NCBI RefSeq assembly: GCF_000203915.1
Contig: NC_008392.1
Location: 372,001-436,000 of the forward strand
Direction of reading: 5' to 3'
Length of the DNA: 64,000 bases
Source: Burkholderia ambifaria AMMD
GTDB lineage: Bacteria; Pseudomonadota; Gammaproteobacteria; Burkholderiales; Burkholderiaceae
Part shown: piece by piece, positions 19,403-61,915 of the stretch
Layout: each line of letters begins with the position of its first letter
Numbering within the stretch: position 1 is the first letter of the stretch
Position numbers and translations under genes: made by a program
Notes under the pieces: model-generated
Told to the model about the DNA's origin: nothing
Seen by the model: the letters and a program-made list of their open reading frames with translations, nothing else
The model's database searches: none

Positions 19403-20317
19403 ATGTCCACCGCCGGTTCCCGAAAAACGCGTCTGCGCGGCGCGCGCTTCGACTTCGACAGCATTGGCGAGCGCTTGCGCGCGTACCGGATGGCTGCCGA
19501 GTTGCGCAGCGAGGATGTCGCCGAGCGCCTGAACATCTCGCGCGCGGCGGTCTACAAGCTCGAACGTGGCGAGATTGTAAAGATCGATACGCTCGAGCGG
19601 CTCGCCGCGCTGTTCGGCGTGTCGCTCGCGAACCTGATGGGCGTCGAGGTCGAGTATCACGATTCGGCGATCAGCTATTTCGAGCGCATGCGGCAGATCG
19701 AGAGCCGCTCGCAGCGGATCTTCGCGCATTTCGATCCGTTCTCGTTCCTGCTGACCTCCGACGATTACGACGGCTGGCTGCGCCAGATGCTCGAGGAAAG
19801 CATCCCGCCGTCGCTGACCGATGCCGCGTGGCGGCAGACGCTGTCGAAAGTGATGGCGATCCTCGCGGACCGGAAAGCCGCGTTCCGGCGCGCACCGCTG
19901 AACGTGACGAGCCTGATCGGGCTGCGCCAGATCGAGCAGTTCCTGCACCACGGCCTGGTCGGCCGCCTCGGGCTGCCGCCGGGCGTGCAGCTCGAGCGCA
20001 AGCTCGCCGCGCGGCGGGAAGTGATGCGGATTGTCGGGATGCTCGAGGACGATGCGAAAGGCGTGCGTATCGGCATCGTCAGCGACAACCTGCCGAACGA
20101 GACCTTCCAGATCTTCGAGGACGACGACAGCGCGCATATCGCGGTATCGCCGTTCCGGCTCGGCGAGCTGCCGAACATTCGTACCGGCATCGCGACGATC
20201 ACCACGTCGGCGGATGCCGTCGCGATGTACCGGAAGATGATCGACCGGCTGTGGACCGATTCCACGAAGGGGGCCGACGGGGCCAGGCTGCTCGTCGACC
20301 TGCTCGACCGGGCGTAG
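19403..20317 (+). CDS. HTH (Xre/Cro-type) transcriptional regulator
   Basis: 304 residues. Residues about 14-70 are a Cro/C1-type helix-turn-helix (GERLRAYRMAAELRSEDVAERLNISRAAVYKLERG... LAALFGVSLANLMG). The remaining 230 residues form an alpha/beta domain without a motif I recognise, perhaps the effector domain. ATG at 19403 follows AGAGG; an earlier in-frame start at 19364 has no ribosome site. It is the only regulator in the catabolic island, so it is the best candidate to bind the repeated GTCTAAATATTTAGAC palindrome. Confidence 0.75.
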   Translation: MSTAGSRKTRLRGARFDFDSIGERLRAYRMAAELRSEDVAERLNISRAAVYKLERGEIVKIDTLERLAALFGVSLANLMGVEVEYHDSAISYFERMRQIESRSQRIFAHFDPFSFLLTSDDYDGWLRQMLEESIPPSLTDAAWRQTLSKVMAILADRKAAFRRAPLNVTSLIGLRQIEQFLHHGLVGRLGLPPGVQLERKLAARREVMRIVGMLEDDAKGVRIGIVSDNLPNETFQIFEDDDSAHIAVSPFRLGELPNIRTGIATITTSADAVAMYRKMIDRLWTDSTKGADGARLLVDLLDRA

Positions 20318-22657: not shown

Positions 22658-22799
22658 CCAGCGCTGGTCAGCGCCAACGCCCGCCGGCACTCGCCGTCCT
22701 ACCCGGGATGCCGGGCCCGGACCACCGCGCCGGCTCGTTCCGCCGAAGGCCAGAGCCACAAGGCAGGACCTTCGCGCGCGCCAACCTACCAGGATGCCC

Positions 22800-23627
22800 A
22801 TGGACTTCTTCCAGCCGGTTCCCCTCGCGCTCGCCCACCTGACGGCACTCGATCTGCCGCCGCCCGAGCTCGTCACCGCGGCGGCGGCGGCCGGTTACGC
22901 GGCGGTCGGCCTGCGGCTGTACCCGGCCTTCGCCGGTTCGCGCTTCTACTCGCTGCCGGCCGGCTCGGCTGCGATCGCCGAGGTACGGCATCGCCTCGAC
23001 GCCACCGGCCTCACGGTCAACGACATCGAGTTCATCGGCATCGGCGCCGACTTCGACGCCGCCGCGCTCGACCCGCTGCTGGAGACGGCGGCCGAGCTCG
23101 GCGCGCGCTGCCTCAGCGTGTGCGGGGACGATCCCGAGCGCGCCCGGCTGAGCGCGAACTTCGCCCGCCTTTGCGAGCGGGCGGCCCCGTTCGGCCTGCG
23201 CGTCGAACTCGAATTCATGGCCTGGCGCGCGGTCGCCCGCTTCGGCGATGCCGCCGAGGTGGTGACGGCGGCGCGCCAGCCCAATGGCGGCATGCTGATC
23301 GACGCGCTGCATGTGTGGCGCACCGGCGGCTCCGAGCGCGACCTCGGCAGCGTGCCGGCCGCGATGATCCGCACCGCGCAGCTCTGCGACGCGCCGGCCG
23401 CGCCGCCGCCCACGTCCGAGGCGCTGCTCGAGGAGGCCCGCGCCGGTCGGCTCGCGCCGGGCCGGGGCGGGCTGCCCGTGGCCGCCCTGCTGGCCGCGCT
23501 GCCCGACGACACCGCGCTGTCGCTCGAAGTGCCCGGCGGCGGGCAGGTCCCGCTCGAACGCCATGTGCGCGAGGTGTTCGAGGCGACGCGGAACCTGATC
23601 GCCTCGCTCGCGACGGTGCGCTCATGA
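22800..23627 (+). CDS. TIM-barrel sugar-phosphate isomerase/epimerase-like protein
   Basis: 275 residues of the AP-endonuclease-2/xylose-isomerase-like barrel. Metal-site residues are visible: Glu in VELEFMAW, Asp and His in MLIDALHVWR, Glu in LSLEVPG. Relatives include IolE-type enzymes and 3-dehydroshikimate dehydratases. ATG at 22800 is favoured because AGGA lies six bases upstream; ATG at 22794 overlaps that site. It overlaps the shikimate dehydrogenase gene by ATGA, so the pair is coupled. Inferred role: dehydration or isomerisation of a shikimate-pathway acid on the way to the cyclohexane carboxylic acid attached at chain release. Confidence 0.75.
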   Translation: MDFFQPVPLALAHLTALDLPPPELVTAAAAAGYAAVGLRLYPAFAGSRFYSLPAGSAAIAEVRHRLDATGLTVNDIEFIGIGADFDAAALDPLLETAAELGARCLSVCGDDPERARLSANFARLCERAAPFGLRVELEFMAWRAVARFGDAAEVVTAARQPNGGMLIDALHVWRTGGSERDLGSVPAAMIRTAQLCDAPAAPPPTSEALLEEARAGRLAPGRGGLPVAALLAALPDDTALSLEVPGGGQVPLERHVREVFEATRNLIASLATVRS

Positions 23628-24538
23628 CGCCCGCCTCGTTCGTTACGCCGCTCGCCCCCCCCGAACTCCCCGCGCACGACCCGGCTGATACCGCGCCGCT
23701 CCGGCTCGGCCTGATCGGTGCCGGCATCGCCCAGTCGCGCTCGCCGGCGCTGCACGAGGGCGAGGCCGCCGCGCGCGGCCTGCCCTGCCGCTATGCGCTG
23801 CTCGATCTCGACCGGCTCGGGATCGGCGTCGACGGGCTCGACGGCCTACTGCGCCGCCTCGAGGACGAAGGCTGGGTCGGCGTGAACATCACGCTGCCGT
23901 GCAAGCAGGCGGTGATCCCGCTGCTCGACGAAGTCGCGCCCGAGGCCGCCGCGATCGGCGCCGTCAACACGGTGCGCTTCGCGGCCGGCCGGCGCATCGG
24001 CTACAACACTGACGCCCATGGCTTCGGCCAGGGCTTTCGCAGCGGCCTGCCCGGGGCGCGGCGCGAGCGCGTGGTGCAGTTCGGCGCGGGCGGCGCCGGC
24101 GCGGCCACCGCCTTCGCGCTACTCGAACTCGGGGCAACGCGGCTGACGCTCGTCGACGAGGTGCCGGCGCGCGCCGCCGCGCTCGCCGCGCAGCTCGGCC
24201 GGCATTTTCCGGCCTGCCGCATCGACGCACCCGAGCACGCCGAGGCCGCGCTCGGCACGGCCGACGGCGTGGTCAACGCCACGCCGGTCGGCACCGCGCG
24301 CCATCCCGGCTCGGCCGTGCCGCTCGATGCGCTGCATGCGGGCCTGTGGGTCGCCGATGTGATCTACGCGCCCGCCGAAACGCTGCTGCTGCGCAGCGCG
24401 CGCGCCCTGGGCTGCCAGACGCTCGACGGCACGCACATGCTGGTGGTGCAGGCCGCGCGCGCCTTCGAGCTGTTCACCGGCTGCCGCGCCGATGTGGCGC
24501 GCATGCTCGAGCGCTTCCGCGCGGCATCCGCGCCCTGA
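23624..24538 (+). CDS. Shikimate dehydrogenase, dedicated copy in the polyketide cluster
   Basis: 304 residues. Shikimate-site residues: SRSPALHE (Ser-x-Ser), NITLPCK (Asn, catalytic Lys), AVNTV and YNTD (Asn, Asp). NADP site: GAGGAG. The C-terminal block is G-HMLVVQAARAFELFTG, normal for AroE. It interconverts shikimate and 3-dehydroshikimate. Start ATG overlaps the previous stop (ATGA). A biosynthetic aroE would not normally sit here, so it is probably a pathway-specific enzyme making the alcohol acceptor for the polyketide, as proposed for the 3,4-dihydroxycyclohexane carboxylate of enacyloxin. Confidence 0.85.
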   Translation: MTPASFVTPLAPPELPAHDPADTAPLRLGLIGAGIAQSRSPALHEGEAAARGLPCRYALLDLDRLGIGVDGLDGLLRRLEDEGWVGVNITLPCKQAVIPLLDEVAPEAAAIGAVNTVRFAAGRRIGYNTDAHGFGQGFRSGLPGARRERVVQFGAGGAGAATAFALLELGATRLTLVDEVPARAAALAAQLGRHFPACRIDAPEHAEAALGTADGVVNATPVGTARHPGSAVPLDALHAGLWVADVIYAPAETLLLRSARALGCQTLDGTHMLVVQAARAFELFTGCRADVARMLERFRAASAP

Positions 24539-24585: not shown

Positions 24586-25599
24586 TCAGACCAGCGCCTC
24601 GTCGCAGCGCACCACCACCTTGCCGAGCGCGCGGCGCTCGGCAAGTACGGCCAGCGCCTCGGGCGCCTGCGCCAGCGGAAACCGCGCCGAGATGAACGGC
24701 CGGATCAGCCCGCGCTCGTAGAACGCCACCAGCTCCTCCACGTTGCGCCGGTTCGCCTGCGCCTCGCCGCTCGCGAACGCGCCCCACAGCACGCCGATCA
24801 TGCGGGCCGCCTTGAGCAGCACCAGGTTGAGCGGGATCCGCGGAATCCCGGCCGTGAAGCCGATCACCAGGTAGCGGCCCTGGAACGCCAGCGAACGCAG
24901 CGCGGCTTCCGCGTAATCGCCGCCCACCGGATCGCAGACCACGTCGGCGCCGCGCGGCCCGCAGGCCGCGCGCAGAGCGTCCTTGAAGGCCTTGGCGGCC
25001 TCCAGGTCGAGCGGCCCGGCCGGGCAGACCACACCGGCATCGGCGCCGCGGCTCAGCGCCAGGTCGACCTTCTCGCGCGACGAGGCCACCGCCACCACGC
25101 GCGCACCCATCGCCTTGCCCAGTTCCACGCTCGCCACGCCGATGCCGCCCGCCGCGCCGAGCACCAGTAGCGTCTCGCCCGCCGCGAGCCGCGCGGCGTC
25201 CTTGAGCGCGTGCATCATGGTCGCGTAGGTCAGCAGCAGGGCCGAGGCATCGTCGAACGACATCGCCGCCGGCAGCGCGAAGCAGCCGTCGGCGGGCAGC
25301 GTGATCTTCTCGGCCAGGCCGCCGCGATTACCGGTCGCGCCGAACACGCGATCGCCAACGCGGATCCCCGCCACGCCGTCGCCCACCGCATCCACCACGC
25401 CGGCCACTTCCGAGCCCGGCGCGAACGGCCGCTCGGGCCGGTCCTGGTAGCGGTCCTGGATCACCAGCAGGTCGGGATAGTTGAGCGCGCAGGCGGCGAT
25501 GCGCACGCGCACCTGGCCGGCGCCCGGCATCGGCTCGGGCACCTCGTGCAGCGCGAGCGTCTCGGGGCCGCCCGCGACGGTGCTGAGTATGGCTTTCAT
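24586..25599 (-). CDS. NADPH:quinone oxidoreductase-like medium-chain dehydrogenase
   Basis: 337 residues, zinc-free MDR fold. GroES-like N-terminal half (ACALNYPDLLVIQDRYQDRPERPF, PGSEVAGVV), NADPH site with VLGAAGGIGVASVELGKAMGA, and the terminal ALGKVVV. Such enzymes reduce quinones or act as enoyl/crotonyl reductases on CoA or acid substrates. Strong GGAGG before the ATG, which overlaps the condensation gene's stop (ATGA). Last gene of the minus-strand operon; inferred to reduce a double bond of the shikimate-derived acid or CoA ester. Confidence 0.75.
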   Translation of the reverse strand: MKAILSTVAGGPETLALHEVPEPMPGAGQVRVRIAACALNYPDLLVIQDRYQDRPERPFAPGSEVAGVVDAVGDGVAGIRVGDRVFGATGNRGGLAEKITLPADGCFALPAAMSFDDASALLLTYATMMHALKDAARLAAGETLLVLGAAGGIGVASVELGKAMGARVVAVASSREKVDLALSRGADAGVVCPAGPLDLEAAKAFKDALRAACGPRGADVVCDPVGGDYAEAALRSLAFQGRYLVIGFTAGIPRIPLNLVLLKAARMIGVLWGAFASGEAQANRRNVEELVAFYERGLIRPFISARFPLAQAPEALAVLAERRALGKVVVRCDEALV

Positions 25600-27152
25600 A
25601 AAACCTCCGTGGTGAGGGGCGCCGCCGCCGGCGCGGCCTGCAGCAGGAAGCGGTCGAGCGCATCGAACAGCGCCTCGATCAGCGCGGCCTGCTCGGCGGC
25701 CGTCAGCAGCGTGTCGTTGAGTTCCAGCGAACCTTCCAGCGCGTGGCCGTAATCGATCAGCCGCAGGTAGATCGACGGCAAGGGAATCGGCCAGGGCTCG
25801 CCGGCCGAGCGCGTCAGCTGCGGCGGCCAGGGCGGATCGGCGCGCTCGTCGAGCGGCGCGCCGGCGCCGGGGATGCGCACCGAGAACATGTTGATGGTGG
25901 CCGCGATGCCGCGCGGATCCTCGATGCCGCTGCCGCCCCGGTGCAGCGGATGGCGCATCAGGGTCGGCACGCGCAGCATCATCGCGCTGTGCGATTCGAT
26001 CTCGCTGGCCTTCAGGATCGACACGAAATCGGCCTTGGCCGGCGCGTGGATCTCGATCACGTCGCTGCAGACCAGGTAACCGACGAGGTTCGCCAGCTCG
26101 GGCGAGGTGCGCAGGTCGCCGACGCAGCGCACCGGCACCCGCTCGCTGCCGGACCAGCGCGCCAGCGCCACGCCGAAGGCGCTCAGCAGCGCGCTGAAGA
26201 GCGAGGTCTGCAGGCGCGTGGCGGCGGCCTGCATGCGGCGCAGCTGCGCGGCCGGAATCACGAAGCGATGGTCGACCTTGCTGCCCGGCTGCCAGGCCAG
26301 CGAGCGACCCGTGAGCGGGCCGACCAGCTCGGGCAGCGCGCGAAAGCGCCGCGCCCAGTAGTCGATCAACGGCTGACGCGCGGGATCGGCCATCCAGGCC
26401 CGCTCCCAGGCCGCGTAGTCGAGGAACTGCGCGGCGGCTGGCAGCGCGCGCGGCGGATCGGCCAGCCGCGCGTCGAGCTCGGCGAGGATCAGCAGCAGCG
26501 AGGCCGCGTCGACGATGATGTGATGGAACACGCACAGCAGCAGGCTCTGGTCGGGCGCCAGCGAGACGACGCGCGCGCGCAGCAGCCACTGCCCGTCGAG
26601 CGGCAGCTGGCGCGCGGCATACTCGGCCGCCTGCGCTTTCAGCGCGGGCTCCAGCTCCTCGCGCGGCAGCGTGCCGTCGGCCTCGACGAACTCGATCGGC
26701 AGCGCCGCGGCTTCGTTGAGCGTGACGGTCAGCCGGCCGTCCTCTTCATGGAACGAGGAGCGCAGCGTGTGGTGGCGGGCCACGATGGCGCGCAGCGCCT
26801 CGGCCACGCGCCCGGCCGTCACGCCCGGGAACAGCTTGACGAGCGGCAGGCGCTCCTGGTTCAGCTGGCGCGGCGGCAGGCCGTACCAGTGCCACCAGAG
26901 TTCCTGGAGCAGCGAGGGACGCAGCTCGGCCGAGGGCGTGATCGTCACCGGATCGGTGCGGCGCGCGGCCTTGGCGGCCAGGTAGGCAACGATCGCTTCG
27001 CGCCTCGCCGACAGCGTCGCGCGATCGGCCGGCGTCAACGCGCCCTTGGGCGCGCGGAACGACAGCTCGCCATCGGCCAGGGACAGCGTGATGCCGCGCG
27101 CCTGCAGCTCGGACAGCAAGGCGGGAATCGTCATGTCGGGCCGCGCGCTCAC
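25596..27152 (-). CDS. Free-standing condensation domain with N-terminal beta-hairpin docking domain
   Basis: About 518 residues. Residues about 7-60 (ALLSELQARGITLSLADGELSFRAPKGALT...) are a TubC-type beta-hairpin docking domain, which binds short acidic tails of partner proteins. The rest is a single NRPS condensation domain with active site HHIIVDA (usually HHxxxDG; the last Gly is Ala, 26505-26525). There is no carrier domain. In enacyloxin synthesis such a protein esterifies the PCP-bound chain with a dihydroxycyclohexane carboxylic acid; the same is inferred here. GTG at 27152 overlaps the previous stop (GTGA); ATG at 27134 is the alternative start. Its partner is the PCP at 28483. Confidence 0.85.
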   Translation of the reverse strand: MSARPDMTIPALLSELQARGITLSLADGELSFRAPKGALTPADRATLSARREAIVAYLAAKAARRTDPVTITPSAELRPSLLQELWWHWYGLPPRQLNQERLPLVKLFPGVTAGRVAEALRAIVARHHTLRSSFHEEDGRLTVTLNEAAALPIEFVEADGTLPREELEPALKAQAAEYAARQLPLDGQWLLRARVVSLAPDQSLLLCVFHHIIVDAASLLLILAELDARLADPPRALPAAAQFLDYAAWERAWMADPARQPLIDYWARRFRALPELVGPLTGRSLAWQPGSKVDHRFVIPAAQLRRMQAAATRLQTSLFSALLSAFGVALARWSGSERVPVRCVGDLRTSPELANLVGYLVCSDVIEIHAPAKADFVSILKASEIESHSAMMLRVPTLMRHPLHRGGSGIEDPRGIAATINMFSVRIPGAGAPLDERADPPWPPQLTRSAGEPWPIPLPSIYLRLIDYGHALEGSLELNDTLLTAAEQAALIEALFDALDRFLLQAAPAAAPLTTEVL

Positions 27153-28390
27153 AGGCTTGCCGCTTCGGGCACGCGCGCCGGCGCGAACAGCACGCCGTCG
27201 CCCTCCATCCGGTCGATCTCGTGCTCCGCGTAACCGAGCTCGGCGGCGATCTCGCGATTGTGCTGGCCCAGCATGGGCGCCACGCGCATCTCGGGCGGCT
27301 CGAAGCCGGAGAAGCGGAACGGCACGTTCGGCAGCCGGATCGTGCCGAGCACCGGATGCTGCTGCTCGATCAGCATGCCGCGCGCCGCGACGTGCGGGTC
27401 TCCCAGCACCTGATCGATGCGCTGCACCGGCGCGGCCGGCACGCCGGCCGCCTCGAGCGCGGCCAGGCAGTCCTCGGCGCTGCGCGCGCGGCTCCAGGCC
27501 TGCACCAGCTCGACGGCCTCGCGCCCGTGCGCGTTGCGGCTGGCCGCATCGAGGAAGCGCGGATCCTCGGCCAGGTCCGCGCCGCCGATCAGGCGCGCCA
27601 GCCGCCGCCAGGCGTCGTCGACCTGCGCGGCGATCACCACGCTGCCGTCCTGGGTCGCGAACACGCCGTAGACGGTCGATTGCGGCAGGTAGTGACCGCT
27701 GCGCGTCATGCGCTCCTCGCCGCCGCTCAGCGTGTGGCACTGCACCGCGTAGTCGTGCATCGACACCATGCAGTCGTAGAGCGCGAGATCGATGTGCTGG
27801 CCGCGCCCCGAGGCCGCCCGGCCCAGCAGCGCCGCGCAGACCGCCGCCACACCGTGGCTGCCCGCGTACATGTCGGCCACCGGCATGCGGAACAGCGGCG
27901 GCGTCTCGTCGGGATTGCCGATCAGGTCCATCGCCCCGCTCATCGCCTCGGCGATCAGGCCGAAGCCGGCCTGCTGCGAGCGCGGCCCGGTCTGGCCATA
28001 GGCCGACACCGAGCAGTAGACCAGCCCCGGGTTCGTCTCGGCGCAGGCCTCGTAGCCGAGCCCGAGTTTGGCGAGCGCGCCGGGCCGGTAGTTCTCGACC
28101 AGTACGTCGGCCTCGCCGATCAGCCTCTTCATCAGCGCGAGCCCGCGCGGATCCTTCACGTCGACGCACAGGCCCTTCTTGCCCATGTTCTGCTGCAGGA
28201 AATAGCCGCTCTCGCCCTGGATGAAGTAGGGATGCGCGCGGCCCGCGTCGCCGCCGGCGGGCCGCTCCACCTTGATCACGTCGGCGCCGAGCGCGGCGAG
28301 ACAACGCGAGACATAGGGGCCCGCCAGGAAGTGCGTGTAGTCGACCACGCGGATGCCCTTCAGGGGTTGCAACTGTGCTTGGCTTGACAT
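27149..28390 (-). CDS. CaiB/BaiF-type (family III) CoA transferase
   Basis: 413 residues. N-terminal family block GIRVVDYTHFLAGPYVSRCLAALGADVIKVERP, then NMGKKGLCVD, VENYRPG, and the catalytic Asp in MPVADMYAGSHG. Two-lobed interlocked-dimer fold. It moves CoA between organic acids. GGAG lies seven bases before ATG 28390; an in-frame ATG at 28402 is possible. Within this cluster it probably forms a CoA ester of a shikimate-derived acid so that neighbouring reductases can act on it, as suggested for enacyloxin's cyclohexane unit. Confidence 0.85.
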   Translation of the reverse strand: MSSQAQLQPLKGIRVVDYTHFLAGPYVSRCLAALGADVIKVERPAGGDAGRAHPYFIQGESGYFLQQNMGKKGLCVDVKDPRGLALMKRLIGEADVLVENYRPGALAKLGLGYEACAETNPGLVYCSVSAYGQTGPRSQQAGFGLIAEAMSGAMDLIGNPDETPPLFRMPVADMYAGSHGVAAVCAALLGRAASGRGQHIDLALYDCMVSMHDYAVQCHTLSGGEERMTRSGHYLPQSTVYGVFATQDGSVVIAAQVDDAWRRLARLIGGADLAEDPRFLDAASRNAHGREAVELVQAWSRARSAEDCLAALEAAGVPAAPVQRIDQVLGDPHVAARGMLIEQQHPVLGTIRLPNVPFRFSGFEPPEMRVAPMLGQHNREIAAELGYAEHEIDRMEGDGVLFAPARVPEAASL

Positions 28391-28482
28391 GTCGATCTCC
28401 ATCGTTGTCAGGATGTCGGCGGCACGCGGGATGCCGCCGTCGATTCAGTGGGGAAACCGTGGACGGAACCGCCGGGGCGGCC

Positions 28483-29430
28483 TCAGCGGATCACGCCTTC
28501 TTCGTACTCCGATGCATCGTCCTGGTCGCCCGAAGGCGCCGGCGCCGCGAGCCGCACGATCGTCTCGGCCAGGCGGGCGACGGTGGGCGCCTCGTAGAGG
28601 CAACGCAGCGGCAGGTCGACGCCGTGGCGCTCACGCAGCTGGGCCAGCATGCGCAGGCCCAGCTGCGAATCGCCGCCGAGCGCGAAGAAATCCTGGTGGC
28701 GGCCAACCGCCGGCAGGGCGAACAGCGCCTGCCAGATCGCCGTCAGGTCAGGCTCGATGCCGGCCGCCGAGACGCCCGCGGCGGCGCCCTCGAAGGCTTC
28801 CGGCGCCGGCCGCGCGCCGGCCTCGAGCGGCGCCTGGTCGGGCCAAGCGAGGCGCCGCGGCGGCGGTCCCTCGCGCAGCGCGTCCCAGTCGAGCTGGCCG
28901 CCGCGCACCCAGATCAGCGCGAGGTTCTCGAGGTCGCGCGCGGCCCACAGCGCGCGCGCCATGGTCGCGGCCGCCGCGCCCGTGAGCAGGCGCGCCGTGC
29001 CCGAATCGGCGGCCAGGTCGCCGCGCAGGATGGTCACCAGTTCGCCGTGGCGGCCGGGCGTCACGCTGCGCGGCACGCTCGCCTCGGCCTGCGCATGCGC
29101 GCGCAGGTAGTGCTCGAGGCCGGCCGCGAGGTCATCGAGCTGCCGCGTCACGAAGGCGACGCGGCAGCCGCCGGCCTCGGGGCGCGACTTCAGCGTGTAG
29201 GCGAGGTCAGCCAGCGTGAACGGCTCGGCCGCGGCGTCGCTCGCGAGCGCGCGCAGCTGGCCCAGCAGCTGCCAGACGGCGCCGCGCAGCGCGTCGACGC
29301 CGGGCGCCGACAGCACGATGATGTCCGCCGTCTCGGCGGCTTGCAGGGTAGCGAGGGTCATGGCGTCGTCAGCCTGGTTGGAAACGGTCGGGGAAGCAGG
29401 GAGCACAGCCTGGCGCGGTGCGCTCACCAT
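28483..29430 (-). CDS. Stand-alone peptidyl carrier protein with KS-flanking remnant and docking tail
   Basis: About 315 residues. Residues about 35-200 are the post-ketosynthase flanking region, matching the tail of PKS-E in both the IVLSA...LADLAYTL block and the LALIWVRGGQLDWDALREG linker, but no KS precedes them. Residues about 225-295 are a PCP with FFALGGDSQLGL (phosphopantetheine Ser at 28666-28668). The last 16 residues are acidic and end EYEEGVIR, a short linear motif of the kind that binds beta-hairpin docking domains. It receives the chain from the terminal KS0 and presents it to the condensation protein. The start is uncertain: ATG 29430 overlaps the previous gene; ATG 29361 is the alternative. 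Confidence 0.85.
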   Translation of the reverse strand: MVSAPRQAVLPASPTVSNQADDAMTLATLQAAETADIIVLSAPGVDALRGAVWQLLGQLRALASDAAAEPFTLADLAYTLKSRPEAGGCRVAFVTRQLDDLAAGLEHYLRAHAQAEASVPRSVTPGRHGELVTILRGDLAADSGTARLLTGAAAATMARALWAARDLENLALIWVRGGQLDWDALREGPPPRRLAWPDQAPLEAGARPAPEAFEGAAAGVSAAGIEPDLTAIWQALFALPAVGRHQDFFALGGDSQLGLRMLAQLRERHGVDLPLRCLYEAPTVARLAETIVRLAAPAPSGDQDDASEYEEGVIR

Positions 29431-30482
29431 GCGCGCAGGTACTGCTCGGGCACCGCGATCGGCACGCCGAGCTCGGCGGCCGCGCGGCGCGGGAAGTAGG
29501 GGTCGCGCAGCGCCTCGCGCGCGACCAGCACGAGGTCGGCATCGCCGCGCTCGATGATCTCGGCGCCGCGCCGGCCCGAGGTGATCATCCCGACGGCGCC
29601 CGTCGCGATGCCGGCCTCGCGGCGGATGCGCGCGGCGAACGGCACCTGGTAGCCCTGGCCCACCGGGATCTTCGCGCTCGCGACATTGCCGCCCGACGAG
29701 GTGTCGATCAGGTCGACGCCGTCCTCGCGCAGCCAGCGGCACAACGCGACGCATTCCTCGATGTCCCAGCCGCCCGGCATCCAGTCCGTCGCCGACAGGC
29801 GCACCACCAGCGGCCTCCGGCGCGGCCACTGCTCGCGCACCGCGGCCACCACCTGGCGCAGCAGGCGGGCGCGGTTCTCGAGCGCGCCGCCGTAACGATC
29901 GCCGCGCCGGTTCGAGAGCGGCGAGAGGAATTCGTGGAACAGGTAGCCGTGCGCGGCGTGGATCTCGATCACGTCGAAGCCGGCCTCGCGCGCGCGGCGC
30001 GCGGCCGCCGCGTAGTCGGCGATTACCTTGTCGATGCCGGCCGCATCGATCTCGGTCGGCACGCTGTAGCCGGCATCGAAGGCCAGCGGGCTGGGCCCGA
30101 GCGGCTGCCAGCCGAGCGTGCCGGCCGGCAGCGGCTTGCCGCCGAGCCAGGGCAAATCCATGCTGGCCTTGCGCCCCGCATGCGCGAGCTGGATGCCCAC
30201 GGCGGCGCCGCGGGCCCGCACGAAGCCGGTGATGCGCGCCCAGGCATCGCGCTGCGTGTCGTTCCACATGCCCGTGCAGCCGAAGGTGATGCGCCCTTCG
30301 GGCGATACCGCGGTGGCCTCGGTGAACACCAGCCCCGCGCCGCCGATCGCGCGGCTGCCCAGGTGCACGAGGTGCCAGTCGTCGGGCACGCCCTCGCTGG
30401 CCGAGTAGACGCAGATCGGCGAGATCGCGATGCGATTGCGCAGGCTCACATTGCCGAGTTGGTACGGGGAGAACAGTGACAT
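29424..30482 (-). CDS. Old Yellow Enzyme family ene-reductase (YqjM/NamA type)
   Basis: 352 residues. YqjM-class features: start SLFSPYQLGNVSLRNRI, SPICVYSA with the flavin-tuning Cys, QLAHAGRK, the substrate His pair in IEIHAAHGYLFHEFLSP, and SNRRGDRYGG. FMN-dependent reduction of an activated C=C bond. ATG 30482 gives the usual family start; ATG 30533, four bases after the PKS-E stop, is possible. Inferred to reduce the ring double bond of a shikimate-derived acid or its CoA ester on the way to the cyclohexane unit. Confidence 0.85.
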   Translation of the reverse strand: MSLFSPYQLGNVSLRNRIAISPICVYSASEGVPDDWHLVHLGSRAIGGAGLVFTEATAVSPEGRITFGCTGMWNDTQRDAWARITGFVRARGAAVGIQLAHAGRKASMDLPWLGGKPLPAGTLGWQPLGPSPLAFDAGYSVPTEIDAAGIDKVIADYAAAARRAREAGFDVIEIHAAHGYLFHEFLSPLSNRRGDRYGGALENRARLLRQVVAAVREQWPRRRPLVVRLSATDWMPGGWDIEECVALCRWLREDGVDLIDTSSGGNVASAKIPVGQGYQVPFAARIRREAGIATGAVGMITSGRRGAEIIERGDADLVLVAREALRDPYFPRRAAAELGVPIAVPEQYLRAW

Positions 30483-30537
30483 GATCGTGGTGCGATCGGC
30501 TCGCTGGAGGAAGTGAAGGTCAGGTGCGTCCATCGGA

Positions 30538-33500
30538 TCAGGCCCGCCCATCGACGACACTGGGTTCGCTGGCCGCCTCGGCCGGCTCGGCAGGGACCTG
30601 CGGCTCGCCCGCGCCGCGGCCCGCGGCGTCGCTCGCGCCGGACAGCCAGTAGCGCTCGCGCTCGAACGGATAGGTCGGCAGCACCAGGCGGCGCGCCGGC
30701 CGGCCCTCGCGCAGGGCGGCCCAGGGCACGTTGCCGCCCTGGACCCAGTGCAGCATCAGCCCCTCCAGGTTGCGTTCGGCCACCAGGGTCTGCGCCATCG
30801 CGTCGCCGGCGGCGCCCGCCAGCAGGTTGCGCATCTCGAGCTGGTCCTGCACGTTGCCGTGGTAGATCGCGGGCTCGGCCGCGCCGGCCGATTCGCCGAG
30901 GAAACGCCGCAGGCCATCGCCAAGCGTGTCGAGGCTGTCGGCCAGCAGCGCGAGCCGGCAGTCCATCGCCTCGCGCCCGATCTGCAGCGTGTGCGCGAGA
31001 TTCGCGAGCGAGCAGGCGCGGCCGCGCTCGGCCAGCGGCACCGCCGATTCCGCCCTGCCCGCCGCCTGCCGCGTGGCGAGCCAGGCCAGCAGGCGCCGCG
31101 CCACCTCGCGCAACTGAGCCGGCGTGCGCGCCGACAGCACCACGATCTCGGCCGGCGGCGCCGCTTGCGCGACGGCTGGCGCGGGCTCCGCCTCGACCGT
31201 CTCGAAGGCCTCGACGATCAGGTGCGCGTTCGCGCCGCTCGCGCCGAACGAGCTGACCGTGGCGCGCCGCGGCCGCGCCGGATCGGACGGCCAGGCCGCC
31301 TGCCGCGAGAGCAGGCGGAACGGCGTGTGGGCCAGGTCGAGGTTGGGGTTGACGGGCTCGGTCTTGATCGAGGGCACCAGCGTCTCGTGCTGCATCTGCA
31401 GGATCACCTTGGTCAGTTGCGCGATGCCCGAGGCCGCCTCGGGATGGCCGATGTTCGACTTCACAGTGCCGATCGGCACGCGCCGGCCGTCGCGCGCGGT
31501 GCCGTCGAACACGCGCGCCAGCGCGCGCAGCTCGACCGCGTCGCCGAGGCTGGTGCCGTTGGCGGCGGCCTCGATGTAGTCGATCGACTCGGGCGACACG
31601 CCGGCCTTGCGGAAGCTGGCCTCCATCAGGTCGACCTGGGCGTTCGCGTTCGGCGCGTAGTAGCCGGTCGCGCGGCCGCCGTGGTTGACCGAGGAGGCTT
31701 TGATCACCGCCAGGATCCGGTCGTCGTCGGCCAGCGCGCGGGCCAGCGGCTTGAGCAGCACGGCGCCCACGCCCTCGGCCGGCAGGTAGCCGTCGCCGTC
31801 GCTGAAGCTGCGGCTGTCGGCATGGCTGCCGACGATCTGCGCCTGGCTCAGCCCGACGTACTTGCGCGGATGCAGCGACAGGTTCACGCCGCCCGCGATG
31901 GCCAGCGCGCAGTCGCCGTCGAGCAGGCTGCGGCAGGCGTAGTGGACCGCCGTCAGCGACGACGAGCACATTGTGTCGAGCGCGATGCTCGGCCCGCGCA
32001 GGTTGAAGAAGTACGAGGTGCGATGCGCGATCGCGTTGTAGGAGGACAGCGCGGTGGCCACGCGCTCGCCCTCGTCGGCCGCGCAGGCGCCATAGAGCTG
32101 GTACATCGCGCCGACGAACACGCCCACCTGCGCGCCATAGGCCTGCTGCATGCGCTCGCGCGTCTCGCCCGCCTCCTCCAGCAGGTTCCAGACCGTCTCG
32201 AGGAACAGCCGCTCCTTCGGATCGAGGTAGGCCGACATCCGCGGCGAGATGCTGAAGAAGGCCGGGTCGAAGGCGTCGACGTCCTCGATGAAGCCGCCCC
32301 AGGCGCTGTAGCTCTTGCCGGGCACGTTGCGCTGCCGGTCGAAGTAGGCGTCGTGGTTCCAGCGCTCGGGCGGGATCGGGGTGATCGCGTCGTGGCCGTC
32401 GCGCAGGTTGTCCCAGAACGCGCCGAGGTCGGCCGCGCCGGGGTAGCGGCCCGATACGCCGATGATGGCGATGTCGTCGGGGCCGGCGCCGGGCGGCAGC
32501 GCCGCGCCGCCGGCACGACGCGGCTCGGCCGCGAACGTGGCGCGCGACGGGGCGCCGGCTGCCGCTGCAGCGGATGCAGCGGATGCAGCGGCCGACGCGG
32601 CCCCGGCCGGCACGGGCGAGGCCGACGATACGGCATGCGCAGCCGCGGCCCCAGTGGCGCCGGCAGGCGCGCCGGTGCCTGCACCGGCACCGCCCGCGGC
32701 CCCTGCGCGAACCGTCCCCGCCGGCGGCGCACCCACGCGTTCGGCCAGGAAGCCCGCCAGCGCCTCGATGGTCGGATGGTCGTGCAGCACCGTGGTCGAG
32801 AGGCTGCAGGCCAGGTCCTTCTCGAGCTGCATGCGCAGGTCGATACTGAGCAGCGAATCGAGACCGAGATCGAACATGCTGGCGCGATCGTCGAGCGTAT
32901 CGGCGCGGTTGAGCAGCTTGCGGATCGCGGCCTCGAGATGGCGCTTCAGGCGCGCCGCGCGCGCCGCCGCATCGAGGCTCGCGAGGCCCGCCAGCAGTGC
33001 CGCGCCGGCCGTGCCGCCGGCGCGGCGCTCGACGCGCGGTGCTCCGCTCGCGCCCGTCGCGCCTGCCTCGGCCTCGACCAGCTCGGCCAGCAGCGCACGC
33101 AGCCAGGGCATGCGGTCCTGGCCGGCCAGCGCGGCGAGCCGCATCGGGATCAAGGCGAAATCGCCGTCGCGATGCGCGAACTGGCGGGCGATTACCTCGG
33201 CACCCTGCTCCGGCGGGATCAGGCCGATCGTGGCCTCGGCGCGCGCCTCGCCCCGGCCGGCGGCCATCCCCCCGCCCGCCCAGCCGGCCCAGCCGATCGC
33301 CAGCCCTGCCAGCCCGAGGCCGCGGCGATAGGCGGCGAAGCTGTCGAGGAAGGCATTGGCGGCCGCGTAGTTGGTCTGCCCCGGGTTGCCGAGCAGCGCG
33401 GCCGCCGACGAATAGAGCACGAAGAAATCGAGCGCATGCTTGCGCAGCGCGTGATGGAGATTGAGCGTGCCGGCCACCTTGGCGGCGAACACCGCGAGGT

Positions 33501-36500
33501 AGCGCCCCCAGTCCTGGTCGTCGAGCACGCCGTCGTCCAGGCTGCCCGCCGAATGGACCACGCCCTTGAGCGGCGGCAGCGTGCGCAGGCATTCGGCCAG
33601 GCGCGGCAGGAAGCTGGCGCGCTCGCCCACGTCGGCCGCCAGCGGCGTCAGTCGCACGCCCATCTCGCGCAGGCCGGCCAGCGCCGGGTCGCCCTCGGCG
33701 CGGGACGGATCGCGGCCCACCAGCACCAGGTGGCGCGCGCCCTGCCGCGCCAGCGCGGTGGCCGTCTCGATGCCGAGCTGGCCGTAACCGCCGGTGATCA
33801 GGTAGCTGGCCTCGGGATCGATCACCGGCGCTGGCGCCGCGAGCGGCGCGGCGCGCCGCAGCCGCGCCACCAGCAGGCGCGCCCCGCGCACCGCGTACTG
33901 CGTCTCCTCGCCGTCCGCGTGAAGCGCCTGCACCAGCAGCGCGGCATCCGCGCGGCCGTCGCGGCTGTCGGGGTCGAGATCGACCAGGCGCGCCGGGCGG
34001 CGCTGTTCGTTGACGAAGCTGCCCACCAGCCCCCAGGCCAGCGCGGCCAGCGGCGCCCGCACGCGCGAGCCGCCGGCCGGCTGGCTGCCGCGCGTGAGGA
34101 AATGCAGCGCCAGTTCGCGCCGGCCCGGCGCGAGCGCGGCCTGGCATAGCCACAGCGGCCCCTGCGCGCAGCGCGCCAGCGCCTCGTCCGACACGGCCTC
34201 GTGCCCCGGCCCGTGCGCCTCGGGATCGAAGCCGTCGAGCGACCAGCCGTGGATCACGCCGTCGAGGCCGCCATCGGCCGCCGCGCCATCGATCAACGCG
34301 CCGAAGCCGTCCGCGTCGGCCGGCGCGGCCTCGCGGCCGAGCACCGAGACGCGATCGCCGCGCGCGGCCAGCACCGTCGCGAGCGCCGCGCAGGCCGTGC
34401 CGCCGTCGCTGAGCAGCAGCCAGTGGCGCGCGGCACGCTCGGCCGACGACGACGAAGCCGCGCACGGCGCGGCCGGCACCCAGTGCCGGTCGTAGAGCCA
34501 GTGGGTCCAGTTCTCGGCAGCGGGCGCGACGGCGCCCGTGTAACGCGTGGTCTCGAAGCGGTCGATGCGCATCACCGGCTCGCCCTGCATGTCGACGATC
34601 GTCAGCTTGGCGTGCTGGGTGCCGCGCCCGCCGTCGTCGGCGAGGACCTCGACGCGGCACCAGATCAGTTCGGGCAGCGGCCTGAACAGGTGGATGCCGC
34701 GCATCGCGGCCGGGATCAGCAGCTCGCCGCCGGCATCGGGCGGCGAGGCTGCGGAAATCGCCTGCAGGCAGGCGTCGAGCAGGATCGGGTGGGTGCTGTA
34801 GCCGTCCAGCGACTGGTCGACGCCGGGCGGCAGCGCGATCTTGGCGAGCGCGCAGCCGGTGCCGCGCGACAGTTCGAAGATGCCCTGGAAGTCGGCCTCG
34901 TATTCGAGCCCGACCTGCGCGATCGCGTGATAGTGGCGGCGCACCGGCACCGGTTCGGCGCAGGCGGCGCGCCAGGCGGCCGGATCGACGGTGGCCGGCG
35001 CGTTGGCCGCGTGGGCCTCGTCCGGCGCGATGCGCGCCCGCGCGTGGAGCGTCCAGCCCGGCGCGCCGCGCGGCCGCCCATGCAGCTCGACGCGCCCGTC
35101 GGCGGGCCGCAGGTGGCAGTAGACTTCGAGCGGCTCGTCGCCGAGCACGCAGCGGTTCGGCAGCTGCAGCTCGTCGATCAGCAGCGGCTGGCCCGGCCAG
35201 CATGCGCGGCCCGCGGTGGCGATCAGGTCGAACTGCGCGCTGGCCGGCAGTACGATCTCGCCGAGGATGCGGTGCGCGGCCAGGTAGGGCAGCGCCGTGA
35301 GCGAAAGCTCGCCCGAGAAATTGCGTGCGCCCGACGGGCACGCGAACAGGCTGCGCAGCACCGGGTGATCGAGCGGCTCCGCGGCCAGCCCGGTGGCGAG
35401 CGCCGGCAGGCGCGGCGCCACGCCGCCGCCGGCGCGGCCGACGGTGGACGGCAGCGTCGCGTCGAACGAATACCCCCAGTCGGTCCACACGCGCTCGCGC
35501 TGGAACGGATAACCGGGCTGGCTCTGGCGGCGCGGCGCCTGCGCCTCGAACAGCGGCGCCCAGCGCACCGGCAGGCCCGCCATGTAGGCCTGCGCGAGGA
35601 AGGCCTCGAGCGGCCGGGCCGGGTCGCGATTGGTGCGGCCGTGGGTCCAGCGGAACAGGCGCTCGTCGGCCGCATCGCCGAGCCGCAGCGCGAGGCCCGC
35701 GCCCAGCTCGACCACGATGCCCTGCGCGTGCTCGGGCCAAGCCTCGTCGCCGAGCGGAGCCGCGTCGGCCGCCGCCGGGCCGCCGTCGCGCTGCCACGAC
35801 TCGGGCAGCTCGCCCGTGCCGAAGCGGCTGGTGAATTCGCAGCGCGCGCGGCCCGCCTTGAAGCCGGCCGGCAGTGCCTCGCCGGCCGCGAGGCCGAGCG
35901 CCGTGTCCCAGTCGACCAGGCCCGCGACGGCCGCCGCCACATACTCGCCGGCGCCATGGCCGCTCACGCGGGCCGGCTGCAGGCCGAGGTGGACTAGCAG
36001 CTGCGCGAGCGCCCAGCGGTGCACCGTGTGCGGTAGCGTCGCGTCGGCCGGCAAGCCGGCATCGCCGCCCGCGCAGAGCCGCGCGAACGCGGCGGCGCCA
36101 TCCGGCACGCGCGACGCGAGGCGCGCCCAGGCCTGCTGGACCCGCTCGCGATAGAAGCCGGGCTGCGCATGCAGCGCCCCGGCCACGCGCCAGTCGACAT
36201 CGGCCGCGCCGCCGATCACCCACTCGGCCGCGCAGGATTTCGGCACCGGCTCGCTCGGGTCGCCGCCGGCCACGTCGAGGTATTCGCGCAGGCAGGCGCG
36301 CAGGTCATCGAGCGTCTCGAAGCTCAGCGCGATCCGGCAGCCGGCCTCGCCGCGGCCCACCGCGGCCGTGTAGCAGAGCGCGGCCGGATCGAGCCGGGCT
36401 TGCCGCGCGTGCGCGTCGTCGAGCCAGTCGAGGTAGCGGCGCGCGTAGTCGGCCAGCGCGGCGCCCGAATGCGCGGCAAGCCGGAATAGCTGCAGCGGTG

Positions 36501-37929
36501 CAGCCTCCGCGTTGGCGGCGTCTTCATGTGCCGAGCCGTCCACGCCCACTCGATCGTCCCGCGGCGCATAGGCCTCGACGATCACGTGCGCATTGGTGCC
36601 GCTGAAGCCGAACGAGCTGACGCCCGCCAGCGCGCGTTCCCGTTCCGGCATCGCCACCGCCTCGGCGGCGATGCGCAGCCGCTCGAGGTCGACGCGAATC
36701 TGCGGATTGAGGGTCTCGAAATGCAGGTTCCTCGGCACCCTGCGATGGCGCACCACCTGGATGGCCTTGTGCAGGCCACCGATACCGGCCGCCGATTCCA
36801 TGTGGCCGAGATTGGACTTCAGCGCGCCGACCACCAGCGGCGCGCGCTCGCCCGCTTCGAGCACGTAGCTGGCCTCCAGCGCGCGCAGCTCGATCGGATC
36901 GCCCAGCGCGGTGCCGGTGCCGTGGCATTCGACGAAGCCGACCTCGGCGGCCGCCACGCCCGCGTCGGCCAGCGCCGCCGCGATCACGCGCCGCTGCGCC
37001 TGGCCGCTCGGCGCGGTCAGGCCCTGCGTGCGGCCGTCGTGGTTGACGGCCGAGCCGCGGACCAGCGCGAGGATCCGGTCGCCGTCGCGTTCGGCATCGG
37101 ACAAGCGCTTGAGCAGCACCAGCCCGCAGCCCTCGGCGCGCACGTAGCCGTCTGCGCTGGCGTCGAAGGTGCGGCAGCGCCCGCTCGGCGAGAGCATCTG
37201 CGAGCGGCAGGCCACCACCGTGCCCTGCGGCGAAAGGATCAGGTTCACGCCACCGGCCAGCGCCGCGTCGCATTCGCCGCGCCGCAGCGCCTGCACGGCC
37301 AGGTGCACGCCCACCAGCGACGAGGAGCAGGCGGTGTCGAGCGCCAGCGTCGGCCCCTCCAGCCCGAAGGTGTAGGCCAGCCGCCCCGCCGCGCAGCTCT
37401 TGGCGATGCCCGAGCCGATGTAGAGGCTGGCCGCCTCCAGCGGCCCCTGCAGCTGGCCGTAGTCGTCGTTCATGATCCCGACGTAGACGCCGGTGCGGCT
37501 GCCCGAGAACGCGTCCACCGCGTAGCCGGCATCCTCGAAGGCCTCCCAGGCCACTTCCATCAGCAGCCGATGCTGCGGGTCGATGTGGATCGCCTCGTCG
37601 TGGCGCAGGCCGAAATGCGCGGCATCGAAACCGTCGATCGCCTCGAGCAGGCCCATCGCATCGCTGTAGATGCCGCCGGGCCGGTGGGGATCGTCGGTGA
37701 GGAAGCGCTGCATCGGCCAGCGCTCGCCGACCATCGTGCGGATGCCGTCGCGGCCCGCCTCGAGCGCGGTCCAGAGCTGGTCGAGCGAGCCGATCCCGCC
37801 CGGGTAGCGGCAGGCCGCGCCGACAATCGCGATCGGCTCGCGGCGGGCCTGCTCGAGCGCCTGGTTGGCCGCCTTCAGGCGCTTGATTTCGGTCAGGCTC
37901 TTCGCGAGGAGCTGCTGAATGTCTTGCAT
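30538..37929 (-). CDS. PKS-E: KS-(AT relic)-DH-KR-ACP-KS0, last polyketide synthase
   Basis: 2463 residues. Order: coiled-coil docking start 1-28; active KS about 30-460 (Cys 201, HGTGT, KSNLGH); decayed AT about 580-810 with GHGAGEY in place of GHSxGE; DH about 870-1150 ([10 protein letters not shown], His 886; LDACLQ, Asp 1052); KR about 1180-1610 (LDD motif, Tyr 1521); ACP with Ser 1692; an Ala/Gly/Pro linker; terminal KS about 1820-2250 with Cys 1988 (DTMCSSS) but EAAANGT where HGTGT belongs (His replaced by Ala 2122); flanking region, no final ACP. The last KS should be non-elongating and transfer the chain to the PCP at 28483. AGGA precedes ATG 37929, 25 bases after the PKS-D stop. Confidence 0.9.
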
Positions 37930-37954
37930 GTTCCGGATTTCCTGGAAGGTGCGG

Positions 37955-40900
37955 TTAGTCGTCGCCCATCTCTTGCCTGAGCAGCGCGGACAGTTCGTCG
38001 ATCGGCAAGGCGGCATCGGCCGGCGCGGCCTGCCCGGCCGGGCCCGGCGGCGCCTGCCGCGCCTGTGCCGCCGCCAGCCGTTCGAGCAGGTAGGCGCTCA
38101 GGCTCGCGACGCTCGGGTAGTCGAAGATCGTGTCGACATGCAGGTCGAGCGCGAAGCAGGCGCCGAGCTCGTCGCTGAATTCGAGGGCCGACACCGAATC
38201 CATGCCGAGCTCGAAGAACGGCCGCTCGTCGGACACGGCGCCCGCGTCGATCTTCAGGAAGCGCACCAGCAGCTCGCGCACCAGCCGCGCGACCAGGTCC
38301 TGCTTCGCGTCGGGCATCAGCTGGGCGAACTCGTCGGGCAAGGCGATCGCCGGCTCGGCCGCCGCCGGCGCAGCCCGGGCGGCCTCGTCCTGCCCCGCCG
38401 CGGGCACGGCCTCGTCCTCGACTGCCAGCAGCGCGGCGCGGCGGAAACGCGCGTGCTCGATCAGCGCGAACACCCGCTCCTGCTCGTCGATCAGCGCGAG
38501 GTCGTAGACCAGTTCGCCGGCCGCGCCCGCCTCGGGCAGATGGCGCACCAGGCAGCGCATGCGCCGGCCAGCGGGCCAGCCGGCCAGCCAGACGCGCCGC
38601 AGCGCATAAGGCAGGTAGCTCGCGCCCGCCGGCTCGTCCGAGCCGGTGTCGATCGCGTTGACGGCCTGCAGGCAGGCGTCGAGCACGCGCGGATCGACCA
38701 GGAAGTCCGAATGGACGGTGGCGATCTCGGCCAGCGCGAGGCCGCCGTCGCAGACCAGCGCCTCGATGCGCCGGTAGCCCGCGCCGAGCCACAGCTGCGG
38801 CGGCAGGCGATCGCGATAGAAGGCCTCGCCGTCCTGACGCGCCGGCGCCTGCTCGCGCAGGGCACGCAGCGCGGCGAGCCAGGGTTCGGCCTGCGCCGGC
38901 GTCGGGCCGCCGCCCAGGCTCAGCTTCGCGACGGTCGCGAAAGCCCGCGCCGCCCGATCGGCAAGCGAGGCGGCCCGCTCATGCAGCGAGGCCTGGCCGT
39001 CGGCGCCGATCTCCAGCTGCACGTCGAGCCGCGCGCCGAAGCGCAGCGGCCGCAGGAAGCGCACCTCGTCGAGCGTGACGCCGCCCGCCAGCGCCTCGCG
39101 GCCCAGCGCATGCAGCACGAAGGCGAGCGAGCCGGCCGCGGGCAGCACGTTGTCGCGGCCGAGGCGATGTTCGTCGAGGAAGGGATGACGCTCGCGATCG
39201 AGTGCGAACTCGACATAGCGGCTGCCGTCGCGCGCGGAGGTCAGGTCGGCGACGACCAGGCCGCCCGCCGGGGTCGTCGAGGGCGCCGTCTGCGGCACCC
39301 AGTAGCGGCGCGCCGGGAAGTGGCTGGCCGGCAGCGCGATGCGGCGTGCCCGCGAGGGCTCGAAATAGGCATGCCAGTCGATGCGCTGGCCGCGCGCCGG
39401 CAGCGCGGCGACCAGCGCGGCCAGGCCGCCCAGCGGGCGCGCGTCGAGCGAAGCGGCCGGCAGGTCGATCACGGCCGGCATGCGCGTCGTCTTGCGCGCC
39501 GGCGCATGCGTGCGGCAGGCCAGCGCGGCCGCCTCGTTCAGCTCGACCTGCCAGGACGGCTGCGGCTCGAAGGCGAGCGAGACCTCGCTCTCGCGCTGGC
39601 CCAGCTGCGCCAGCGCGGCGCGCACGGCACGCGCATCCTCGGCCACGAGGCCGTCGAGCATGGTGTCGAGATCGAGCGCGCCGCCGAGCGCGGCGGCCAC
39701 AAAGCAGAGCGGGCCGCGCGCGCGGATCCGCTCGGGCTGCACGCCCAGACGCTGCAGCAGCCGCCCGAAGGCATAGACCAGGATCGCCGCCTCGAACGCG
39801 GCGGCATCACCCTGGCACAGCGCGCGGCCCGTGACGGGGGCGCGGCCGCGGACGCGCAGCCCCTCGACGCAGGCGTCCACGGCATCGCGGAAGGCCGGGT
39901 AGAGATCGTAGAAATGCACCGCCTGCGCGGCCCAGACCGGTCGCGCGCCGTCGCCGAGCCGCCATTCGAGCGGCACGCTCGCGGCGGGCCGCTCGAAGCC
40001 CGAGACGGTGCCGGCCGCCAGCGCCAGCAGCGCGTCGCGCAGCTGCGCGACCGAGCCGGCCGGCAGCACCGCCTGCAACGCGTGGCCGGCGCGCGAGACG
40101 CTCAGCGTGTAGGCGAGATCGGCCAGCTCGGCGCCGTTGGCCAGCGCCGCCGCGTAACGCTCGGCGTCGGCGGCCAGCTGCGCGCGATCGACCTGCGAGA
40201 GCATCGCCAGCGGCACGAAGCCGGCCGGCATGTCGGGCAGCGTCACCGGCGCGACATACTGCTCGACCAGCAGATGCGCATTCGTGCCGCTCAGGCCGAA
40301 CGAGCTGACGCCCGCCACCAGCGGCGCGGCCGCATGCCAGCCGCGGCGCTGGCCCACCACCTCGAGCGCGCCGCGCGTCCAGTCGAAATTGGGATTGGCG
40401 CGCCGGTAATGCAGGTGCGGCGGCAGGGTCTCGTGCCGCATCGCCAGCAGCACCTTGATCAGCCCGGCGATGCCGGCTGCCGCCTCGGCGTGGCCGATGT
40501 TGGTCTTGACTGAACCGAGCAGCAGCGGCGTGTCGCGCGGCGTGCGGCCATACACGGCCTGCAGCGCGTTCAGCTCGATCGGGTCGCCCAGATGGGTGCC
40601 GGTGCCGTGCGCCTCGACATAGGACACGCGCTCGCGCGCGATGCCCGCGTCGGCCAGCGCCTTCTCCAGCACGCGCTGCTGCGCCAGGCCGTTGGGCACC
40701 GTCAGGCCGCCGGCGCGGCCGTCGTGCGCGACCGCGCCGCCGCGGATCACGCCTACCACCGGATCGCCGGCCGCCACCGCGTCGGCCAGGCGCTTGAGTA
40801 CCACCACGCCGCAACCCTCGCCGCGCACGAAGCCGTCGGCATCGGCGTCGAAGGTGCGGCAGCGCCCGGTCGGCGAGAGCATCCCGCCCGCGCATTCGAG

Positions 40901-46882: not shown

Positions 46883-46892
46883 CTCGGGCTCC

Positions 46893-55849
<8,957 letters not shown>

Positions 55850-55850
<1 letters not shown>

Positions 55851-61800: not shown

Positions 61801-61915
61801 CCACCGCCACCGCCACCGCCTCGTGATGGCCTTGCTCGGCCTGCGCGAGCCGCGTCTTCAGTTCGCGGATCGTCTGGATCGATTGCAGCAGCAGGTCCTT
61901 GTCCATGTCCGTCAT
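55850..61915 (-). CDS. PKS-B: KS-(AT relic)-DH-MT-KR-ACP
   Basis: 2021 residues, one module. KS about 30-460 (Cys 205, HGTGT, KANLGH); a highly decayed AT-like stretch about 540-730 with no GHSxG; DH about 765-1030 ([10 protein letters not shown], His 781; IDACLQ, Asp 952); C-methyltransferase about 1060-1360 ([12 protein letters not shown] near 1228); KR about 1390-1780 (TGGFGGIG; Tyr about 1740 in [10 protein letters not shown]; no LDD, Trp in ALWG suggests an A-type KR); ACP (Ser 1901). Expected output is an alpha-methyl enoyl unit. The C-terminal 70 residues are a flexible Ala/Thr linker ending in an acidic helix for docking to PKS-C. ATG 61915 overlaps the PKS-A stop and has GGAG eight bases upstream. 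Confidence 0.9.

Follow-up and report, generated by a model that had tools for sequence, protein, structure and literature searches.

Off-loading end of the Burkholderia ambifaria enacyloxin IIa assembly line, with possible ketosynthase remains in its carrier protein

The enacyloxin release route of Burkholderia ambifaria is already known and well studied; the experiment on chain transfer by its non-elongating ketosynthase (KS0) and the acceptor acid reportedly come from Masschelein 2019 and Kosol 2019. According to PMC13324335, Bamb_5917 and Bamb_5915, the latter being the protein of PDB entry 6CGO, mediate release of the chain from the enacyloxin IIa polyketide synthase (PKS). The interaction of the two proteins through a short linear motif (SLiM) and a docking domain, and the release that they bring about, are shown there and in PMC9113145, which also describes Bamb_5919 as a PKS subunit docking to Bamb_5920. 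An enacyloxin cluster is likewise reported for B. gladioli, in 43 of 206 strains (PMC8115902); in the collection of PMC7912996, only isolates of B. ambifaria and B. gladioli were producers, and the passage of PMC9958762 dealing with enacyloxin names these two species only. A literature search on release terms gave no match, and none of the listed matches for enacyloxin with host names joined it to Janthinobacterium or Aquabacterium.

The region described here lies in a 64,000-nucleotide stretch of the B. ambifaria AMMD genome (the window) and, judged by sequence identity, is the B. ambifaria enacyloxin IIa cluster itself, the reference system and not merely one of its type. The condensation protein aligns with chain A of PDB 6cgo (Bamb_5915) over 512 residues (query 4–515), and the printed alignment shows no mismatch. 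In the PCP protein, the last 101 residues (203–303 of the 303-residue query) are identical to 5mti, which Foldseek lists under the title "Bamb_5917 Acyl-Carrier Protein"; the two residues that start the aligned stretch differ. These matches support the proposal of an earlier note on this DNA that the cluster uses enacyloxin-type off-loading, and the gene order that the note likened to the enacyloxin cluster matches because the window is that very cluster. The sequence comparisons of this analysis yielded no evidence against the enacyloxin identity. With the genes, the active-site residues, the sequence identity to solved proteins and the absence of a thioesterase domain from the scanned PKS frames established in this analysis, we put the probability that the region as a whole is best explained as the off-loading end of the B. 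ambifaria enacyloxin IIa assembly line at roughly 97%.

The terminal ketosynthase and the release genes

PKS-E (30538–37929, minus strand), which by its place would be Bamb_5919, is composed of a KS, an acyltransferase remnant, DH, KR, ACP, the terminal KS0 and a post-KS linker, as defined by Pfam and motifs. The KS0 occupies 31207–32478 and its RhiE-like linker domain (Pfam PF22336) 30643–31206, both on the minus strand. As had been claimed from the sequence, this final KS retains its Cys (TGC at 31966–31968, minus strand, in the motif DTMCSSS) and has Ala in place of the HGTGT His (GCC at 31564–31566, minus strand), with EAAANGT aligned to ECHGTGT of the first KS of PKS-E; the second catalytic His is retained in a NIGHPEA motif (31435–31455). 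A search of the cluster from window position 20001 through 40 kb beyond the window, in open frames of at least 300 residues with hits above 80 bits, found 11 KS domains; 10 of them have HGTGT, the terminal KS alone being without that His. The AAANG motif occurs in the terminal KS of all four clusters compared (the window, B. ubonensis, Aquabacterium sp. A7-Y and Janthinobacterium lividum), so that, with only one of the cluster's own KS domains affected, the loss of the His is not a matter of chance. Both the Cys and the second His are kept in the same four clusters. No ACP follows the terminal KS, again as the note had it: the sole carrier domain that Pfam detects in PKS-E precedes it (residues 1669–1732 of the frame 30538–37941), and the phosphopantetheine Ser of this last PKS ACP, the chain donor, lies at 32854–32856 (minus strand; LGLDSLL motif, Pfam PP-binding).

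Pfam lists no acyltransferase domain in PKS-E, and the module concerned therefore probably needs an acyltransferase in trans. Between its KS and DH, the stretch around 35944–35961 (minus strand) looks like a truncated acyltransferase with GHGAGE, Ser being replaced by Ala; the expected acyltransferase motif is GHSxGE, and J. lividum has GSGFGE at the same site. Beyond the window, the first PKS protein of the cluster (L010:9802–17838, minus strand) starts with AprA-like N-terminal, winged-helix, methyltransferase and GNAT domains, which we take to be an apratoxin-type loading unit.

Downstream of PKS-E, Pfam identifies a separate protein with one carrier domain, the stand-alone PCP protein Bamb_5917 (28483–29430, minus strand, with its start at 29430 or 29361). 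Its PCP domain spans 28543–28761 (minus strand; residues 201–273 from the ATG at 29361), with the phosphopantetheine Ser at 28666–28668. The C-terminal docking tail, the SLiM ASEYEEGVIR (28486–28515, minus strand), keeps YEEG in all four clusters; its role is taken from PMC13324335. The condensation protein Bamb_5915 (25596–27134, minus strand) joins a β-hairpin docking domain (TubC_N) to a C domain with HHIIVD at 26508–26525. The separate PCP and condensation proteins had been described as encoded next after PKS-E; both are indeed present downstream, but two genes intervene, one for an FMN oxidoreductase of the old yellow enzyme type (29424–30482, minus strand; PF00724) between the PKS-E and PCP genes, and one for a family III CoA-transferase (27149–28402, minus strand; PF02515) between the PCP and condensation genes. 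A zinc-type alcohol/quinone dehydrogenase family protein is encoded at 24586–25599 (minus strand; PF00107/PF08240). Genes for a shikimate dehydrogenase (23624–24538, plus strand; PF08501) and a xylose-isomerase-like TIM-barrel protein (22794–23627, plus strand; PF01261), identified with Pfam, adjoin the release cassette; their products probably serve the cyclohexane acid, presumably in the making of a shikimate-derived acceptor.

Relationships of the terminal ketosynthase and distribution of the cassette

A tree built from 75 KS rows unites the four terminal KS0 domains (99/94) and sets them apart from the 20 other KS domains of the J. lividum and B. ambifaria clusters (99/95); within its own cluster, the terminal KS of the window is distant from all 10 others. 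The KS0 clade belongs to a group (91/85) that also holds 16 KS rows of PKS systems on plasmids; 15 of these have HGTGT and one lacks it. Six KS rows lack the His, requiring two changes on the tree and forming one group in 0% of 200 bootstrap trees. The notion of KS0 domains as a single phylogenetic clade was rejected, the terminal KS not being grouped with all other His-less KS domains. The phylogeny of the last KS, offered in the note as a check and as a possible refutation, does not discriminate KS0 from elongating KS, because the His-less domains are not one group and the rows that group with the KS0 clade are mostly HGTGT-intact. The tree, rooted at the midpoint for drawing only, excluded rows shorter than 380 residues and three divergent KS-like rows (L020_33833, L023_37210 and L023_6356), the incomplete 'half-KS' domains of J. 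lividum and Aquabacterium being added by hand; L019_23865 and the Aquabacterium half-KS were flagged for long end branches, and their places are therefore less sure. Among the best solved relatives of the terminal KS0 are chains that bear the names AT-less PKS and PksL and have a full post-KS linker. These relatives and the grouping in the tree suggest that the KS0 was probably taken from a trans-AT system, its His being lost there or later. Second among the plasmid matches to the KS0 is one on a Streptomyces globosus plasmid (L018), with 49% identity and an intact HGTGT; facT, a predicted gene for elfamycin efflux, lies nearby. Elfamycins act on EF-Tu, as enacyloxins do.

The cassette recurs in B. 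ubonensis, in Aquabacterium sp. A7-Y and on a J. lividum plasmid. One genome from each of 84,980 species was scanned with an aligned pair of condensation proteins as query, by a method that needs conserved peptide words and may miss the window's own genome. The scan gave two relatives by name, B. ubonensis LMG 20358 and Aquabacterium sp. A7-Y, in both of which the frames from PKS-E to the condensation protein follow the order of the window. At an E value of 1e-60, matches turned up in 2 of 65 genomes of the genus, the window's own included; a sample of the order had one in 1 of 399 genomes, again the window's own. The plasmid collection yielded J. lividum HAMBI_1919 (NZ_CP139977.1). On that plasmid (L012 and L009), what seems to be an entire enacyloxin-type cluster lies close to a gene for an acyl-homoserine-lactone synthase; the annotation lines shown for the record do not name enacyloxin. 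B. gladioli was not named among the cassette matches of these scans.

The release route and its alternatives

In the proposed route, the finished chain would sit on the last ACP of PKS-E, from which the terminal KS0 would take it on its Cys and, lacking the HGTGT His, would not extend it. Passage from the KS0 to the stand-alone PCP would constitute the first transacylation. With the C-terminal tail of the PCP bound to the β-hairpin docking domain of the condensation protein, the HHxxxD site of the latter would join the chain to a hydroxyl of a dihydroxycyclohexane carboxylic acid in the second transacylation, freeing the antibiotic.

The product could instead be released by a thioesterase, with the condensation protein acting later or elsewhere, and one thioesterase-family protein is encoded at the far end of the cluster (L010:17780–19087), about 18 kb beyond the window's end. 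This protein is discrete, however, and its gene lies beside the first, loading PKS gene; equated by position, it would be the bamb_5926 product, which PMC13324335 calls a type II thioesterase while having Bamb_5917 and Bamb_5915 mediate release. No thioesterase domain was detected by Pfam in the PKS frames scanned from 30538 up to and including the first PKS gene, namely 30538–37941, 37955–46966, 46893–55853, 55850–63202 and 61915–63996 in the window and L010 3–3170, 3201–10040 and 9802–17838 beyond it, the bases joining the two pieces not being scanned as one and only a few frames being scanned at window 1–22000. A thioesterase releasing the product had been named in the earlier note as evidence against its off-loading proposal; with a single discrete protein and no such domain in the scanned PKS frames, the proposal stands, and release by a thioesterase is scarcely credible. 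The absence of the HGTGT His could also mean that the terminal KS is a dead leftover, the last ACP passing the chain directly to the PCP or the condensation protein. Against this stand the Cys and second His kept in all four clusters, the constraint on the KS0, which is the most constrained part measured (dN/dS 0.15, 95% bootstrap 0.09–0.23, between B. ambifaria and B. ubonensis), and its short end branches in the tree, 0.02–0.18 as against 1.33 and 1.66 for the half-KS domains of two PCP proteins. We regard a dead KS as very improbable, and transfer through a working KS0 as the preferred reading.

Probable ketosynthase remains in the carrier protein

The first part of the PCP protein, which the solved 5mti construct leaves out, appears to be an orphan post-KS linker domain, the relic of a lost ketosynthase (28846–29328, minus strand; about residues 12–172 from the ATG at 29361). 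It could be taken for an independent fold that merely resembles such a linker, since its Pfam match to the RhiE-like linker scores 25.9 bits, just below the curated cut-off of 27, and its structure model has a modest mean pLDDT of 62. Several comparisons nevertheless make this very improbable. In a phmmer alignment, residues 22–186 of the 303-residue query match the region after the KS in 7zma (chain residues 1514–1659; whole-sequence E 8.4e-11), and in Foldseek the predicted structure matches KS structures such as 7zmc over 159–184 columns with TMq of 0.38–0.43. Each of the four PCP linkers, used as query, ranks its three fellows and the linkers of the four KS0 domains above 35 other linkers, these being from other KS domains with a recognizable end motif, those without one being dropped, and the ranking resting on the best 14 rows per query. 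In J. lividum and Aquabacterium, finally, the domain comes after a half-KS. A chance resemblance of the N terminus to a linker was rejected on the 7zma alignment, the half-KS orthologues and the linker ranking.

The two orthologues (L009:16951–18693 and L014:7099–8688) carry their half-KS at the N terminus, ahead of the linker, and the plasmid record annotates the J. lividum protein as a beta-ketoacyl synthase N-terminal-like protein. The Cys motif reads DTVASGT in J. lividum and DSAAALS in Aquabacterium, with no Cys in either, and in both the segment for HGTGT and NIGH is missing from about the same point. In the tree, the two half-KS domains pair with each other (94/89) and group with the four KS0 domains (99/98), on longer end branches. 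The best BLAST rows of the J. lividum half-KS after itself are the four KS0 domains; for that of Aquabacterium, the top rows are the J. lividum half-KS and three KS0 domains, and the fourth KS0 ties with a Bacillus KS. The PCP proteins of B. ambifaria and B. ubonensis have kept only the post-KS linker. We infer that Burkholderia lost the KS part, rather than that J. lividum and Aquabacterium gained it, because such a linker would hardly be expected where there had never been a KS.

Between B. ambifaria and B. ubonensis, a plain Nei–Gojobori count on this one species pair gave a dN/dS of 0.42 (95% bootstrap 0.24–0.71) for the relic linker, 0.43 (0.25–0.71) on 169 codons or 0.46 on 188 codons for the KS0 linker, 0.28 (0.12–0.68) for the PCP and 0.93 (0.32–2.8, 24 codons) for the segment that separates the relic from the PCP. 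The inactive-looking acyltransferase remnant of PKS-E, its Ser lost, stands at 0.39, and such values alone therefore show no docking or catalytic role. On these figures, the constraint on the relic is about that of a working linker. This fits a structural or a docking role, the two not being separable on a single species pair. We tentatively suggest, giving it somewhat less than an even chance, that the free PCP descends from a KS–linker–PCP unit whose KS was duplicated from the terminal KS0 and decayed stepwise, losing its Cys and C-terminal part in Janthinobacterium and Aquabacterium and all but the linker in B. ambifaria and B. ubonensis, and that selection kept the linker as a means for the working KS0 to recognize the PCP or hold it near.

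The ketosynthase remains seem to be the one fresh detail of this locus and, if new, a modest lead. They would suggest that duplication followed by decay gave rise to a free carrier protein next to a KS that does not elongate, and the linker part may explain how the KS0 finds its partner in trans, which is relevant to the engineering of hybrid assembly lines.

Set beside the dual-transacylation release of enacyloxin IIa by Bamb_5915, Bamb_5917 and Bamb_5919, the locus is the same, the condensation protein and PCP being identical where compared, and no difference from the B. ambifaria system was found. The J. lividum HAMBI_1919 plasmid cluster shares the gene order from PKS-E to the TIM-barrel gene, a condensation protein of 58% identity and a KS0 with the same AAANG motif, whereas in its PCP protein a half-KS, in which DTVAS replaces DTxCSS, precedes the linker and PCP. 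The retained Cys and lost HGTGT His are also those of KS0 domains of trans-AT polyketide synthases, in which the chain usually goes to the next module of the same chain; the enacyloxin KS0, in contrast, would hand it to a carrier on another protein. With TubC_N on the condensation protein and a conserved YEEG tail on the PCP, the two proteins resemble the SLiM and β-hairpin docking pairs of PKS–NRPS junctions, but the enacyloxin pair serves release and not elongation.
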